DNA of 64,000 bases from Jiangella mangrovi. Lineage in GTDB: Bacteria > Actinomycetota > Actinomycetes > Jiangellales > Jiangellaceae. Positions 1 through 42,143 of the stretch are shown here, one piece after another. Below the pieces are notes generated by a model. The model was given only the letters and a program-made list of their open reading frames with translations, searched no databases and was not told the origin of the DNA. Made by a program: the position numbers and the translations under genes. Position 1 is the first letter of the stretch. Each line of letters begins with the position of its first letter. Location: positions 7,068,037-7,132,036 of the forward strand of contig NZ_JACHMM010000001.1 in the NCBI RefSeq assembly GCF_014204975.1. The letters run 5' to 3'.

Positions 1-1659
<1,659 letters not shown>

Positions 1660-3847: not shown

Positions 3848-6004
3848 TCAGCGGCTGCTGCGGCGGCGCAGCGCCTCGTCGACCTCGGGGTCGCCGAGCT
3901 GGCTCAGCCAGGTCAGCAGCTCCGGGTAGGTCGACGGGTTGGCGGCGACGTACTTGCGCAGCCCCGGCTCCTGGGCGGCGATGTCGGCCAGGACCTGCAG
4001 CGGCGTGTTCGGGTCGAGCGCGGTGCGGGCGTCGAAGCCCGACGAGCCCGCGACGTCGTCGGTGACCGGCGGCTGGTCGACCCGGGTGGCGGGCTCGACC
4101 AGGGGCTGGTTGACGCGCGTGGCGGTGTCGTCGGCCGCGCTCCCGGCCGCGGCCTCACCGGCGGCGAGCCCACTGACCGGGCCGGGGCCGTCGCCGCCGA
4201 TGCGACCGGACGGGGTGGCGGCGGTGCCGTTGCCCGTGCCGGACTCGCCGGCCGGAGCGTCGGTGACCGTTTTGGCCTCGTCGGCCGGGACCGCGGGGCT
4301 GGCCGGCACCTCGCCGTCGGCGTCGCCCTGGGCCTTCGCCTCGGCGGCGCGGGCGTCGGCCGCGGCCTTCGACTCCGTGACCCGCGCCTGGGCGTCCGCC
4401 TCGGCCTTCGCGGCGTCGGCCTTCGCCTTCGCCTCGGCCTTCGACTCCGCGGCCTTCGACTCCGCGGCCCGCGCGGCGGCGGCGCCCGAGGCGGCCGCAG
4501 TCGCACCGGTGGCCACGCCCGCCCCCGCCGGACGAGACGCCGTCGCGGACTCGCCCTCACCGGAGCCGGACCCGTTGCCGGGCAGCACGCTGCTGAGGCT
4601 GAGCTGGTTGGCGCCGATGGGCCCGTACTCCGACCGCACCGACGACGGCGCCGTCAGCACCACGAACAGGGCGAGCCCGAACACCCAGAGCACGCTGACG
4701 ATCGTGGCGGTGACGATGTCGACGATGGTCTCGTCGGAGGCGCCGAGGATGGCGACGACGACGATGCCCAGCAGCAGGAACACCCCACCGGCCACGACGG
4801 CGATGGCCCGGCCCGCGTTGGCGTCGCGGACCAGCGCGTTGCGGCCGACCAGTGCGGCCAGCACCAGGATCAGCATGAGCACCAGGACGACGATGGCGAT
4901 GCCGCGGCCGACGTCGGCGCCGATGATGTTCAGCACGAAGAACACGACGCCCGCGACGGCGGTGAGCATGACCAGCTCGAGCGCCCGGACACCCACCGCG
5001 GACCAGTAGCCGGCGCCGGCGGTGTGCGTGTACCGCGGCCGCAGGCCCGGCGCGGCCGCCGCGACCGCGATGGCCGGGACGAGGATGAGCTGCGGCCCGA
5101 ACGTGCTGAGGCTCCACGCGTCGGCCATGGTGCCGTCGGCGCCGAGCTGCCACACGCCCACGAACAGCGCCGTCACGCCCAGCAGCAGGAGCACGTCGCG
5201 CCAGGCGGCGTCGCCGCGGAACACGCCCCACAGCGGCAGGGCGGCCAGCGCGAGGAAGAACACCATGGCGACGACGAGGTAGGTGATCTGCTCCCACTCG
5301 AGCACGTCGGCGTCGTCGGTGAGGAACGTGACGAGGCTGATGACGGTCAGCAGAGCGAAGAGCCCGCCGATGCCCAGCGTGATCCAGCGCCACAGGGCAC
5401 CGTCGCCGCCGTCGGACGGGGTCTGCTCGGCCTCGCGGCCCTGCGCGGCCAGCAGCGCGCCGGCCAGGCCGAACATGATGCCGACTCCGACGCCGTCGCC
5501 GCCGTTCTCGCCCACGTAGCCGAGGACCAGCGTGATGAGCACGACGACGACGTAGGGCGCGTTGGCCGCGAGCCGGGCCAGCCGCAGCTCCGCGGTGCCC
5601 CACGACCCCGGCAGCACGCCGCCACGCTGCAGGTAGGGCAGCGCCAGGGAGATGACGGACAGCAGCGTCACGAGGATGACGTAGACCTTGCCCGTCACCG
5701 TGTCGGTGAGGTCCCACGGCATGCCGAACGAGACCAGGAGGAGCACGAGGGCGACGATGTCGCGGACGTAGTCGAGTGCCGGGATGTCCGCGAACGGGTT
5801 GCCGCGCCCCGCGGCGCCGGGCGTGCCGGTGCCGAGCGTGCCGCCGATGGGGCCGCTCTGGCGTGTGCCCGGCTGCCCTGCCGGCGGCTGTCCGGCCTGG
5901 GTCCGGCCCGCTGTGGCCTCCGCGGTCGCCGTCATGGGCGAGCCGCAGTTGCCGCAGAAGGCCGAACCGGTGGCCGGCGCCCCGCAGTTACTGCAGTAGT
6001 TCAT
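3848..6004 (-). CDS. zinc-ribbon, multi-pass membrane protein with LRV-like C-terminal domain
   Basis: A 718-residue protein of unknown function. Residues 1-22 form a zinc ribbon (CSNCGAP...CGNCGSP). A Gly/Pro/Thr-rich linker follows, then about ten hydrophobic segments (roughly 75-470), then a low-complexity Ala/Glu/Lys/Ser stretch (about 500-570, likely helical or coiled) and an acidic linker. The last 60 residues (DPNTPLQVLADIAAQEPGL...NPSTYPELLTWLSQLGDPEVDEAL) match the variant leucine-rich domain found at the ends of several actinobacterial proteins. GGAGA stands 7 nt before the ATG. It is separated by 120 bp from the CDA-like gene upstream and has its own terminator. It interrupts the usual link between the ybeY group and era. 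Confidence 0.75.
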   Translation of the reverse strand: MNYCSNCGAPATGSAFCGNCGSPMTATAEATAGRTQAGQPPAGQPGTRQSGPIGGTLGTGTPGAAGRGNPFADIPALDYVRDIVALVLLLVSFGMPWDLTDTVTGKVYVILVTLLSVISLALPYLQRGGVLPGSWGTAELRLARLAANAPYVVVVLITLVLGYVGENGGDGVGVGIMFGLAGALLAAQGREAEQTPSDGGDGALWRWITLGIGGLFALLTVISLVTFLTDDADVLEWEQITYLVVAMVFFLALAALPLWGVFRGDAAWRDVLLLLGVTALFVGVWQLGADGTMADAWSLSTFGPQLILVPAIAVAAAAPGLRPRYTHTAGAGYWSAVGVRALELVMLTAVAGVVFFVLNIIGADVGRGIAIVVLVLMLILVLAALVGRNALVRDANAGRAIAVVAGGVFLLLGIVVVAILGASDETIVDIVTATIVSVLWVFGLALFVVLTAPSSVRSEYGPIGANQLSLSSVLPGNGSGSGEGESATASRPAGAGVATGATAAASGAAAARAAESKAAESKAEAKAKADAAKAEADAQARVTESKAAADARAAEAKAQGDADGEVPASPAVPADEAKTVTDAPAGESGTGNGTAATPSGRIGGDGPGPVSGLAAGEAAAGSAADDTATRVNQPLVEPATRVDQPPVTDDVAGSSGFDARTALDPNTPLQVLADIAAQEPGLRKYVAANPSTYPELLTWLSQLGDPEVDEALRRRSSR

Positions 6005-37889: not shown

Positions 37890-40739
<2,850 letters not shown>

Positions 40740-40778
40740 CGGAATTCGTCCCTCATCTGTGGGTGTCGGGGCCTGGAA

Positions 40779-40809
40779 CAAAAGAAAGACCCCTCACGCA
40801 GGAGGGGTC
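40779..40809 (-). terminator. attenuator terminator in leuS leader
   Basis: Read on the minus strand, GACCCCTC (40809-40802) pairs with GAGGGGTC (40795-40788), followed by CTTTCTTTTG, a U tract rare in such GC-rich DNA. It lies 40 bp before the leuS start and 43 bp after the leader peptide stop. The segment GTCGGCGCGGC just before it can pair with GCCGCGCTGAC at the end of the leader frame, giving an alternative structure. Confidence 0.85.
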
Positions 40810-40851
40810 AGCCGCGCCGACGTGACGCCGCTGGAGGGCGTCCGCTACCAG

Positions 40852-40887
40852 TCAGCGCGGCCCGATAAGGAGCAGCAGGCCTCGCAC
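40852..40887 (-). CDS. leuS leader peptide (MRGLLLLIGPR)
   Basis: An 11-codon frame: GTG at 40887, four consecutive Leu codons CTG CTG CTC CTT, stop TGA at 40852. The -10-like TATCCT at 40894-40899 is six bases upstream, so the transcript probably starts at the GTG with no 5' leader, a frequent actinobacterial mode. Stalling at the Leu codons would change the pairing that competes with the terminator at 40788-40809. The frame, the codons and the terminator are seen; regulation is inferred. Confidence 0.8.
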   Translation of the reverse strand: MRGLLLLIGPR

Positions 40888-40922
40888 ATTGTCAGGATAG
40901 CGCACTCGTCCCCCTAGGGTGT

Positions 40923-42143
40923 GTGGCCATGGACGTCCCGGGCTGGGTGTGGGTCCCGACGGTGGCCGCGATCGTCGCGCTGCTGGCCTTCGACTACGTG
41001 TTCCACGTGCGCCGGGCCCACGTTCCGTCCCTGCGCGAGGCGGCGGTGTGGTCGGCGCTCTACGTCGGCATCGCGGTGGCGTTCGGCGTCGGCGTGCTGA
41101 TCCTCGGCGGCACCACCATGGGCGCGGAGTACTTCGCCGGCTACATCACCGAGAAGGCGCTCTCGGTCGACAACCTGTTCGTGTTCCTGATCCTGCTGCA
41201 CAGCTTCCGGGTGCCGCGGGAGTACCAGCAGAAGGCGCTGCTGTTCGGCATCACGTTCTCGCTGATCGCCCGGACCGGCCTGATCTTCGTCGGTTCGGCG
41301 CTGATCAACACGTTCGCCTGGGTGTTCTACCTGTTCGGGATCGCCCTGCTGCTGACGGCGGGCAACATGCTGAAGCCGAGTGGCGGCGAGCCGGACGAGG
41401 GCGAGAACATCGCCGTGCGCACGGCCCGGCGGTTCTTCCACACCAGCCCGTCCTTCGACGGCGGCCGGCTGTTCACCGAGCGCGGCGGGCGCCGCGTGAT
41501 GACGCCGATGCTGCTGGTCATGGTGGCGCTGGCCGGCACCGACGTGCTGTTCGCGCTGGACTCGATCCCGGCGATCTTCGGGCTCACGCAGAACGTCTAC
41601 CTGGTCTTCACCGCCGTCGCGTTCTCGCTGCTCGGGCTGCGCCAGCTGTACTTCCTCATCGACGGCCTGCTGGACCGGCTGATCTACCTGTCCTACGGGC
41701 TGGCCGTGATCCTGGGATTCATCGGCGTCCGGCTCATCCTGCACGCGCTGCACGAGAACAACCTGCCGTTCGTCAACGACGGGCAGCCGGTCGAGGTGGC
41801 CGAACTCAGCACCGGGCTCTCGCTGGCGGTGATCGTGGTGGTCCTCGTGGTGACGGTGGTGGCGTCGCTGGTCAGCCGCACGGGCCGGGCGCAGACGGCG
41901 ATCGCCAACGCCCGGCGGCACGCGACGGCCTACCTCGACTCGGAGTACACCGCCGACCCCGCCGAGCGGGAGCGGATCTTCCAGTGCCTCGTCGACGAGA
42001 AGGTCGAGATCGTGAAGCTCGGCCCGAAGTACAAGCAGATGGCCAGGGACGCCGAGGGGCTGCTCGACCTGGTGGAGCGAGCGCACGACAGCCACGAGGC
42101 GGCGGCCGCCCGCGGCGAGACCCCCGCCGGCGACCACCACTGA
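40923..42143 (+). CDS. TerC family membrane protein
   Basis: A 406-residue integral membrane protein with about eight to nine spans and the TerC signatures EYFAGYITEKALSVDNLFVF (acidic residues in membrane) and ALAGTDVLFALDSIPAIFGLT. TerC proteins are tied to tellurium resistance and metal (manganese) export during membrane-protein secretion. A soluble tail (about 330-406) follows the last span. GTG at 40923 or ATG at 40929 may be the start. It is divergent from the leuS leader and convergent to the VKOR gene, whose stop is one base away. Confidence 0.9.
   Translation: MAMDVPGWVWVPTVAAIVALLAFDYVFHVRRAHVPSLREAAVWSALYVGIAVAFGVGVLILGGTTMGAEYFAGYITEKALSVDNLFVFLILLHSFRVPREYQQKALLFGITFSLIARTGLIFVGSALINTFAWVFYLFGIALLLTAGNMLKPSGGEPDEGENIAVRTARRFFHTSPSFDGGRLFTERGGRRVMTPMLLVMVALAGTDVLFALDSIPAIFGLTQNVYLVFTAVAFSLLGLRQLYFLIDGLLDRLIYLSYGLAVILGFIGVRLILHALHENNLPFVNDGQPVEVAELSTGLSLAVIVVVLVVTVVASLVSRTGRAQTAIANARRHATAYLDSEYTADPAERERIFQCLVDEKVEIVKLGPKYKQMARDAEGLLDLVERAHDSHEAAAARGETPAGDHH

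Follow-up and report, generated by a model that had tools for sequence, protein, structure and literature searches.

A leuS leader of Jiangella mangrovi with a leucine-codon peptide and two abutting hairpins: a probable further case of the actinobacterial leuS attenuator

Introduction

Classical attenuators of leuS, the leucyl-tRNA synthetase gene, were predicted in Streptomyces avermitilis and Streptomyces coelicolor (Seliverstov et al., 2005; PMC1262725), and RNA-seq of Streptomyces lividans TK24 showed that the leader peptide leuL2 (MRAVRLLLSEPR) is leaderless and is followed by a hairpin and uridines (2021; PMC8079986). Lopatovskaya et al. (2010), cited in PMC10272879 for the attenuation of amino-acid and aminoacyl-tRNA operons, may hold further leuS cases, and a survey of premature terminators from 2010 (PMC2965389) does not name leuS in its accessible part. 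The ilvBNC leader of Corynebacterium glutamicum (PMC11857589) and the ilvB-II motif (PMC10272879) have CUU and GUA control codons a short distance upstream of a hairpin that adjoins the terminator. In Escherichia coli, the leu leader is reported to use rare Leu codons (PMC1183508). That attenuator components are missing in many actinobacterial cases is an old puzzle (PMC1262725).

The leuS leader of Jiangella mangrovi described here resembles the Streptomyces leuS attenuators in the gene that it precedes, in its apparently leaderless peptide with a run of Leu codons, and in its hairpin and U tract. This kind of attenuator is thus already known from Streptomyces, and the Jiangella leader adds a further case.

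Results

The window, that is, the whole 64-kb stretch of J. mangrovi DNA that was analysed, carries leuS on the minus strand, and the encoded LeuS is closest to that of Jiangella species, with up to 92% identity among the matches listed. The parts that the initial annotation had named in front of this gene (a box, six bases, a GTG-started peptide, two pairing segments, a hairpin and a U tract) all lie where it had placed them:

40923-42143, strand opposite to leuS: terC/Alx-type gene, divergent upstream neighbour of leuS
40899-40894, minus strand: -10-like box TATCCT, read from the sequence
between the box and the GTG, minus strand: 6-nt spacer GACAAT, read from the sequence
40852..40887, minus strand: leader peptide MRGLLLLIGPR, 11 codons, GTG at 40887-40885, stop codon ending at 40852
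40867..40878, minus strand: four Leu control codons CTG CTG CTC CTT, the near-invariant one being the final CTT (40869-40867)
40851..40862, minus strand: P1 hairpin, 5' strand (GGCCGCGCTGAC), which overlaps the peptide end and the stop codon (folding, covariation)
40824..40842, minus strand: inner helix of P1, GACGCC/GGCGTC, conserved in neither sequence nor length
40810..40821, minus strand: 3' strand of P1 (GTCGGCGCGGCT), with a 0-nt gap to the terminator (folding, geometry)
40788..40809, minus strand: intrinsic terminator hairpin GACCCCTC-CTGCGT-GAGGGGTC (folding, terminator scan, covariation)
40779..40787, minus strand: U tract TTTCTTTTG, directly after the terminator hairpin (sequence, terminator scan)
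37890..40739, minus strand: leuS, leucyl-tRNA synthetase of 949 aa (TIGR00396, 891.8 bits against a cut-off of 548.4)

On the minus strand, the codons after the GTG read CGA GGC CTG CTG CTC CTT ATC GGG CCG CGC TGA. Pairing of GCCGCGCTGAC with GTCGGCGCGGC (40821-40811) gives hairpin P1, and the minimum-energy fold of 40888-40779 consists of two back-to-back hairpins, P1 and then the terminator (40809-40788). The folding energy by itself does not stand out: its z score is -1.77, and 13 of 200 shuffles reach an equally low value. The terminator scan gave 2 nested sites in the leader compared to a mean of 0.1 in shuffles. When both strands of the window were searched for short ORFs that contain a run of control residues and begin 5-7 nt after a -10-like box, the leuS leader ORF was the sole match, and the terminator motif CCCCTCCTGYGYGAGGGG occurs a single time in the 7.16-Mb genome. 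The pattern of the leuS leader exceeds chance.

An overlapping ATG at 40889 opens another frame; relatives conserve the frame of the GTG peptide and not that of the ATG. Since the GTG stands 6 nt after the box, the leader peptide is probably leaderless. The promoter scan found no consensus sigma-70 promoter for the leuS leader. The TATCCT box and the first base of the divergent terC/Alx-type ORF are 24 nt apart (40899-40923), so both promoters probably overlap.

Other assignments of these elements were rejected. The terminator does not belong to the upstream gene, since the terC/Alx-type neighbour sits on the other strand, and a repeated mobile terminator does not explain the conserved terminator sequence, which has one genomic copy. 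The T-box riboswitch controls synthetase genes via tRNA charging. Within 40500-41200, Rfam gave no T-box match at E up to 10, and a T-box or any other Rfam element was rejected, as three Rfam matches were all far below gathering scores. Elsewhere in the window, a frame at 2-1534 (minus strand) overlaps a weak TIGR00977 match (C1:7068461-7069402, 59.9 bits) and is perhaps leuA; the box/ORF pattern found no leaderless Leu leader at this frame.

The initial annotation had proposed an alignment of the leuS upstream regions of relatives. In 81 such regions (80 leuS loci from named genomes and the window), a leader was called when the DNA before leuS had a TANNNT box followed, at a box-to-start distance of 5-8 nt (4-9 nt in the search of a second set), by a short ORF that opens with ATG or GTG and contains Leu codons. 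The layout, with its Leu codons, was present in 60 of the 81 regions, and P1 and the terminator covary, as detailed below. In 115 of 116 leaders the ORF starts 6 or 7 nt after the box, and the S. lividans homologue is reported to be leaderless. The original reading of an apparently leaderless Leu-codon peptide and a terminator before leuS is supported. T1, A2 and T6 of the box were invariant in 48 aligned leaders, which had been found by that motif.

A covariance model (R1) was built from 48 of the 60 leaders (alignment A1), leaving out 12 near-duplicates. R1 matched all 22 genomes searched in the family. Across the class, with weak matches included unchecked, it matched 232 of 393 genomes, and 95 of 137 genera had a match. 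In a draw from the phylum, 21 of 198 genomes had a match, 12 of them within the class and 9 outside it. Part of the R1 matches precede cimA instead of leuS. By motif, the leader was absent from 21 of the 81 leuS upstream regions, including those of Cellulomonas, Rhodococcus and Gordonia, with a few of the 21 (e.g. L013 and L058) too close to a contig end to judge; R1 matched a single one of these, L026, and weakly (E 0.46). The leader is therefore dispensable. Genome G200, of the same family, has two leuS-type leader matches, L133 and L125, the former beside a leuS start; this pair may reflect a second gene copy or assembly redundancy.

Both hairpins show compensatory change. In the MAFFT alignment A1, P1 and the terminator were paired in 92.8% of cells, two-sided changes occurred in 11 of 18 pairs, and none of 500 shuffles reached the observed covariation; one P1 pair was C-G in 30 and U-A in 18 of the 48 leaders and was never broken. 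In a second alignment of 60 separately fetched elements (A2), 95.0% of cells were paired and two-sided changes occurred in 15 of 18 pairs, with 113 two-sided-change cells compared to 29.4 in shuffles (0 of 500 as high). A2 leans towards R1, because it was fitted to the model, and the MAFFT alignment A1 agrees with it. Its elements were hand-chosen among the R1 class matches listed, none coming from the family of the window (f1) or the most sampled family (f19). They comprise 55 elements before leuS (50 called by motif, and L146, L150, L157, L193 and L200 by a TIGR00396 match of a fragment), 4 before cimA-like genes and 1 (L158) at a contig end.

For the majority of the 60 first-set leaders, the free minimum-energy fold consists of P1 plus the terminator; leaders that in part fold otherwise include L021, L047, L048, L059 and L071. 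Micromonosporaceae leaders (e.g. L018) have a second form of P1, in which the peptide ends in PC before the stop (CCGTGCTGA/CAGCACGG) instead of PR (CCGCGCTGA/TCAGCGCGG). The RNA stem P1 seems to set the last residue of the leader peptide.

Codon use and geometry were examined in 113 of 120 leaders; L012 and L177 failed geometry, and L174 and four cimA-type elements had no usable peptide. The last Leu codon was CTT in 103 leaders, CTC in 9 and TTG in 1 (104 CTT by a slightly different rule), and the Leu codon before it was CTC or CTT in 87 of 110. In the leuS coding background, CTT accounts for 29 of 4031 Leu codons (about 0.7%) and CTC and CTT together for 338 of 4031, approximate counts that assume a coding start at locus position 4001, which is untrue for L009 and L012. 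By the decoding rules, CUC and CUU are read by tRNA-Leu(GAG), and tRNA-Leu(UAG) might read CUU too. One tRNA-Leu(GAG) gene and one tRNA-Leu(UAG) gene were found among the 38 of 46 tRNA hits that were typed. Biased control codons are expected under the selective-charging theory (Elf and Ehrenberg; PMC1183508).

The position of P1 is fixed at both ends. P1 mostly starts 4-5 nt after the last Leu codon and ends 0-2 nt before the terminator, although the gap counts are partly built in, as the geometry script sought the P1 3' end only from -6 to +2 nt of the terminator. When the stretch from the codon to the terminator was folded (n = 113), P1 started 4-6 nt after the last Leu codon in 93.8% of leaders compared to 14.7% of shuffles, and ended within 2 nt of the terminator in 95.6% compared to 43.7%, the folded stretch stopping at the terminator and so favouring small gaps in shuffles too (0.44-0.47). 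Both spacings occurred together in 89.4% of leaders and 7.3% of shuffles. The window leader has a gap of 0, and an overlap of 1-2 nt was seen in 13 of the 113. Other dimensions vary: P1 loops measure 3-67 nt, and the stop codon is found anywhere between -2 and +26 nt, counted from the P1 start.

A hairpin about 5 nt past the A-site codon is the arrangement found at frameshift sites. An A follows the last Leu codon in 84 of 113 leaders, and the hairpin that begins about 5 nt on recalls known +1/-1 shift sites. We considered whether starvation-induced frameshifting at CUU might carry ribosomes past the stop codon and through the terminator. The shifted frames are not kept open: only 83 of 113 leaders can be read through the terminator in the +1 frame without meeting a stop codon, and 59 of 113 in the +2 frame. 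This explanation was rejected as extremely improbable.

The same layout precedes ilvB and cimA. The second R1 match in the genome of the window lies before cimA (citramalate synthase; TIGR00977, 622.3 bits). This leader (C1:5351172-5351279, minus strand; loci L135 and L304) encodes the peptide MSFCLIIT with Ile codons and has the P1-terminator layout of leuS. The ilvB leader of the same genome, MRFGILVLH (about C1:5388570-5388650, minus strand; L303), was read by eye, as its box does not fit the script pattern; its last control codon CTT is followed by 5 nt, P1 and, 1 nt on, the terminator. Using a looser box and a spacing of 5-10 nt, we scanned the best 30 loci for each gene (98 genomes) and found leaders in 25 of the 30 best-scoring class loci for ilvB and 22 of the 30 for cimA. 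We used 24 ilvB and 20 cimA leaders, dropping L256 (a copy of L255) and the doubtful L208 and L210; in six (L213, L222, L223, L233, L244 and L245) the start was moved by hand to an inner ATG/GTG. P1 ended within 2 nt of the terminator in 91.7% of ilvB and 85% of cimA leaders compared to 46.5% of shuffles for each, and the distance from the last control codon to the P1 start was 4-6 nt in 83.3% and 60%, compared to 16.3% and 14.0% of shuffles, respectively. In cimA, 6 leaders out of 20 had a codon-to-P1 distance of 8 nt, with four of the six coming from a single genus, and the cimA sample includes several leaders from one genus. A literature search, in which subscription journals were mostly not covered, found no paper on a cimA leader peptide.

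P1 had been taken at first for a stem that competes with the terminator, and folding of the leader had been proposed as a check. That folding confirmed that P1 and the terminator form, and did not show mutually exclusive stems: the two share no arm and form together in the window leader and most others. We then placed a ribosome on the leader, with an assumed footprint of 15 nt on each side of the P-site codon masked in folding. In the window leader, the terminator probability was 0.99, 0.99 and 0.90 with the ribosome at the first Leu codon, the last Leu codon and the stop codon, respectively, and folding thus gives no direct reason for P1 to stop termination, as the terminator stays at 0.90-0.99 at every ribosome position.

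In classical attenuation the stems would be mutually exclusive, with an antiterminator taking a terminator arm, as in E. coli trp and leu, or a shared edge, as in C. glutamicum ilvBNC. P1 does resemble the C. glutamicum antiterminator (nucleotides 36-79, with the terminator at 77-113 and a shared GCC; PMC11857589), and the 1-2-nt overlaps of P1 and terminator noted above fit such a shared edge. We calculated how far the terminator 5' arm is paired before the 3' arm is made, dropping L169, in which the terminator assignment is doubtful (n = 112). Mean pairing was 0.17 at the first Leu codon, 0.27 at the last and 0.39 at the stop codon; this rise towards the stop is the reverse of what classical attenuation requires, and the arm is mostly free. 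Pairing above the stop value, the classical direction, was seen in 15 of 112 leaders at the first Leu codon and in 31 of 112 at the last. In contrast, the E. coli controls gave 0.68 at the best stall codon and 0.06 at the stop for trpL, 0.67 and 0.31 for leuL, and 0.82 and 0.17 for thrL, with lower values at other stall codons (trpL Trp1, 0.35; leuL Leu4, 0.39; thrL codons 16 and 18, 0.20 and 0.13).

Candidate antiterminators were also sought directly. Pairing of the P1 3' strand with the terminator loop was rejected, as it showed no covariation and 488 of 500 shuffles scored as high. In 75 of 113 leaders the terminator stem admits no outward extension at all, and an extension of 3 bp is possible in just 1. 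Single leaders are more favourable to a classical switch: the window leader has a loop segment, GAC.GCCCUC, able to pair with the terminator 3' arm, and the free fold of L047, L048 and L059 pairs the peptide-coding part with that arm. The terminator probability without a ribosome was 0.61 in these three and in L062, and with a ribosome at the stop codon it was 0.11 in L010 and 0.59 in L035. Micromonospora leaders have short P1 loops without a segment that pairs to the terminator 3' arm. In these computed folds, the leaders do not form a classical antiterminator that excludes the terminator upon stalling, with departures in single leaders, and neither ribosome-placed folding nor the covariation test found a conserved alternative pairing of the terminator, so the competing stems first proposed were not borne out. 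Classical attenuation is on balance unlikely, with a real if minor chance of being correct.

In computed energies, a ribosome at the first Leu codon favoured the terminator by over 2 kcal/mol more than a ribosome at the stop codon did in 94 of 113 leaders; this result, like the terminator probabilities above, gives no direct reason for P1 to stop termination. Such a bias would suit a scheme in which P1 delays the ribosome at the Leu codons and a constant basal read-through is set by the terminator, any regulation being weak or opposite in sign. The 4-5-nt spacing, which sets P1 at the mRNA entry of the ribosome during CUU decoding, also points this way, and the leader geometry might serve ribosome pausing only. 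However, pausing would leave unexplained both the 0-2-nt distance between P1 and the terminator in leuS, ilvB and cimA and the match of the control codons to the amino acid of the downstream enzyme, and we consider it quite improbable.

Discussion

With its parts, conservation, covariation, spacing and codon bias, the leuS leader is probably a leucine-responsive, ribosome-mediated attenuator in which a ribosome stalled on CUU, together with P1, prevents termination. We infer from the layout, and from the RNA-seq of the S. lividans homologue, that transcription starts at or beside the GTG, and the ribosome would therefore load straight onto the 5' end. The response to leucine and the blocking step, which we likewise infer, would run as follows. 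With ample charged tRNA-Leu, the ribosome would clear the Leu run and reach the stop codon within the P1 5' strand; there it would open P1, the terminator would fold freely, and leuS would stay untranscribed. When charged tRNA-Leu is scarce, the ribosome would wait on the Leu run, chiefly at the last CUU, read by tRNA-Leu(GAG), P1 would stand between ribosome and terminator, and the terminator would fail. Because P1 abuts the terminator without overlap, we consider this block to be positional, exerted by P1 or by the stalled ribosome that P1 brings to the terminator foot, with no exchange of base pairs.

P1 could block in two ways. It may itself compete with the terminator, sterically or at the edge, in the way argued for ilvBNC of C. 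glutamicum (PMC11857589), or it may hold the stalled ribosome at the foot of the terminator. The latter hypothesis fits best, because the codon-P1 and P1-terminator distances are fixed and the loop is free, and it would keep the usual logic by which an untranslated leader terminates. Taken further, it suggests an actinobacterial class of attenuator without any antiterminator, in which P1 loops out variable RNA, the CUU-stalled ribosome itself disables the terminator, and a ribosome that reaches the stop codon unfolds P1 and so ends up at a distance from the terminator. We put this forward as a speculative and rather doubtful extension. If true, it would account for the two fixed spacings, the free loop, the free stop position and the near-invariant CUU, and it would apply to leuS, ilvB and cimA alike.

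Published codon tests in Streptomyces bear on these readings. Substitution of the control codons was without effect in the S. coelicolor ilvB leader, and mutations in the S. coelicolor leuA leader had effects inconsistent with classical attenuation (both as reported in PMC1262725). These tests, of ilvB and leuA and not of leuS, speak against a simple codon-driven switch, and the ilvB result counts against a shared reading because ilvB leaders have the leuS-type layout.

The closest known counterparts of the Jiangella leader are in Streptomyces. As with leuL2, a short Leu-run ORF lies directly upstream of leuS and is followed by P1 and a terminator hairpin with a U tract; the leuL2 peptide MRAVRLLLSEPR itself recurs in the Streptomyces loci L028, L042, L070 and L078, of which L028 and L042 align with the Jiangella leader. 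The initial annotation had regarded leaderless, ribosome-mediated attenuation of leuS as unusual. The observation stands, and the claim has to be cut back because leuS attenuators were predicted in 2005 (PMC1262725) and the leaderless leuL2 was reported in 2021. In PMC1262725 the Streptomyces leuS attenuators are termed classical, with an antiterminator, whereas folding here shows that P1 does not compete with the terminator. Furthermore, the wider range, the near-invariant CUU and the fixed spacing do not appear in the accessible parts of the accounts of Streptomyces leuS in PMC1262725 and PMC8079986.

The C. glutamicum 'fast' attenuator of ilvBNC (PMC11857589) and the ilvB-II element (PMC10272879) are similar to the leuS leaders in having a near-leaderless peptide and a hairpin adjoining the terminator. 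In the 'fast' attenuator, the hairpins share GCC, which is called its hallmark, and in the ilvB-II motif a P1-loop segment pairs with the 3' shoulder of the terminator. P1 of the leuS leaders likewise lies next to the terminator (at a distance of at most 2 nt in 95.6% of the 113 leaders), but it mostly abuts the terminator without sharing, and the two hairpins have no boundary trinucleotide in common. The E. coli trp, leu and thr attenuators also combine a control-codon peptide with a terminator before the operon, and the leuS leader is like them in that its control codons match the amino acid of the gene under control. In E. coli, stalling lets an antiterminator take the terminator 5' arm, whereas the same computation found none in the leuS leaders. 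A T-box likewise controls synthetase genes, and the leuS region of the window has no T-box match.

A putative leucine-sensing leuS attenuator, described so far, in the accessible literature, for a few Streptomyces, is here found to be widespread in Actinobacteria. The leuS, ilvB and cimA leaders have one strict layout in common, which the textbook antiterminator model does not explain, and a small number of reporter and in-vitro constructs could now put the puzzle of missing attenuator components in Actinobacteria to the test.
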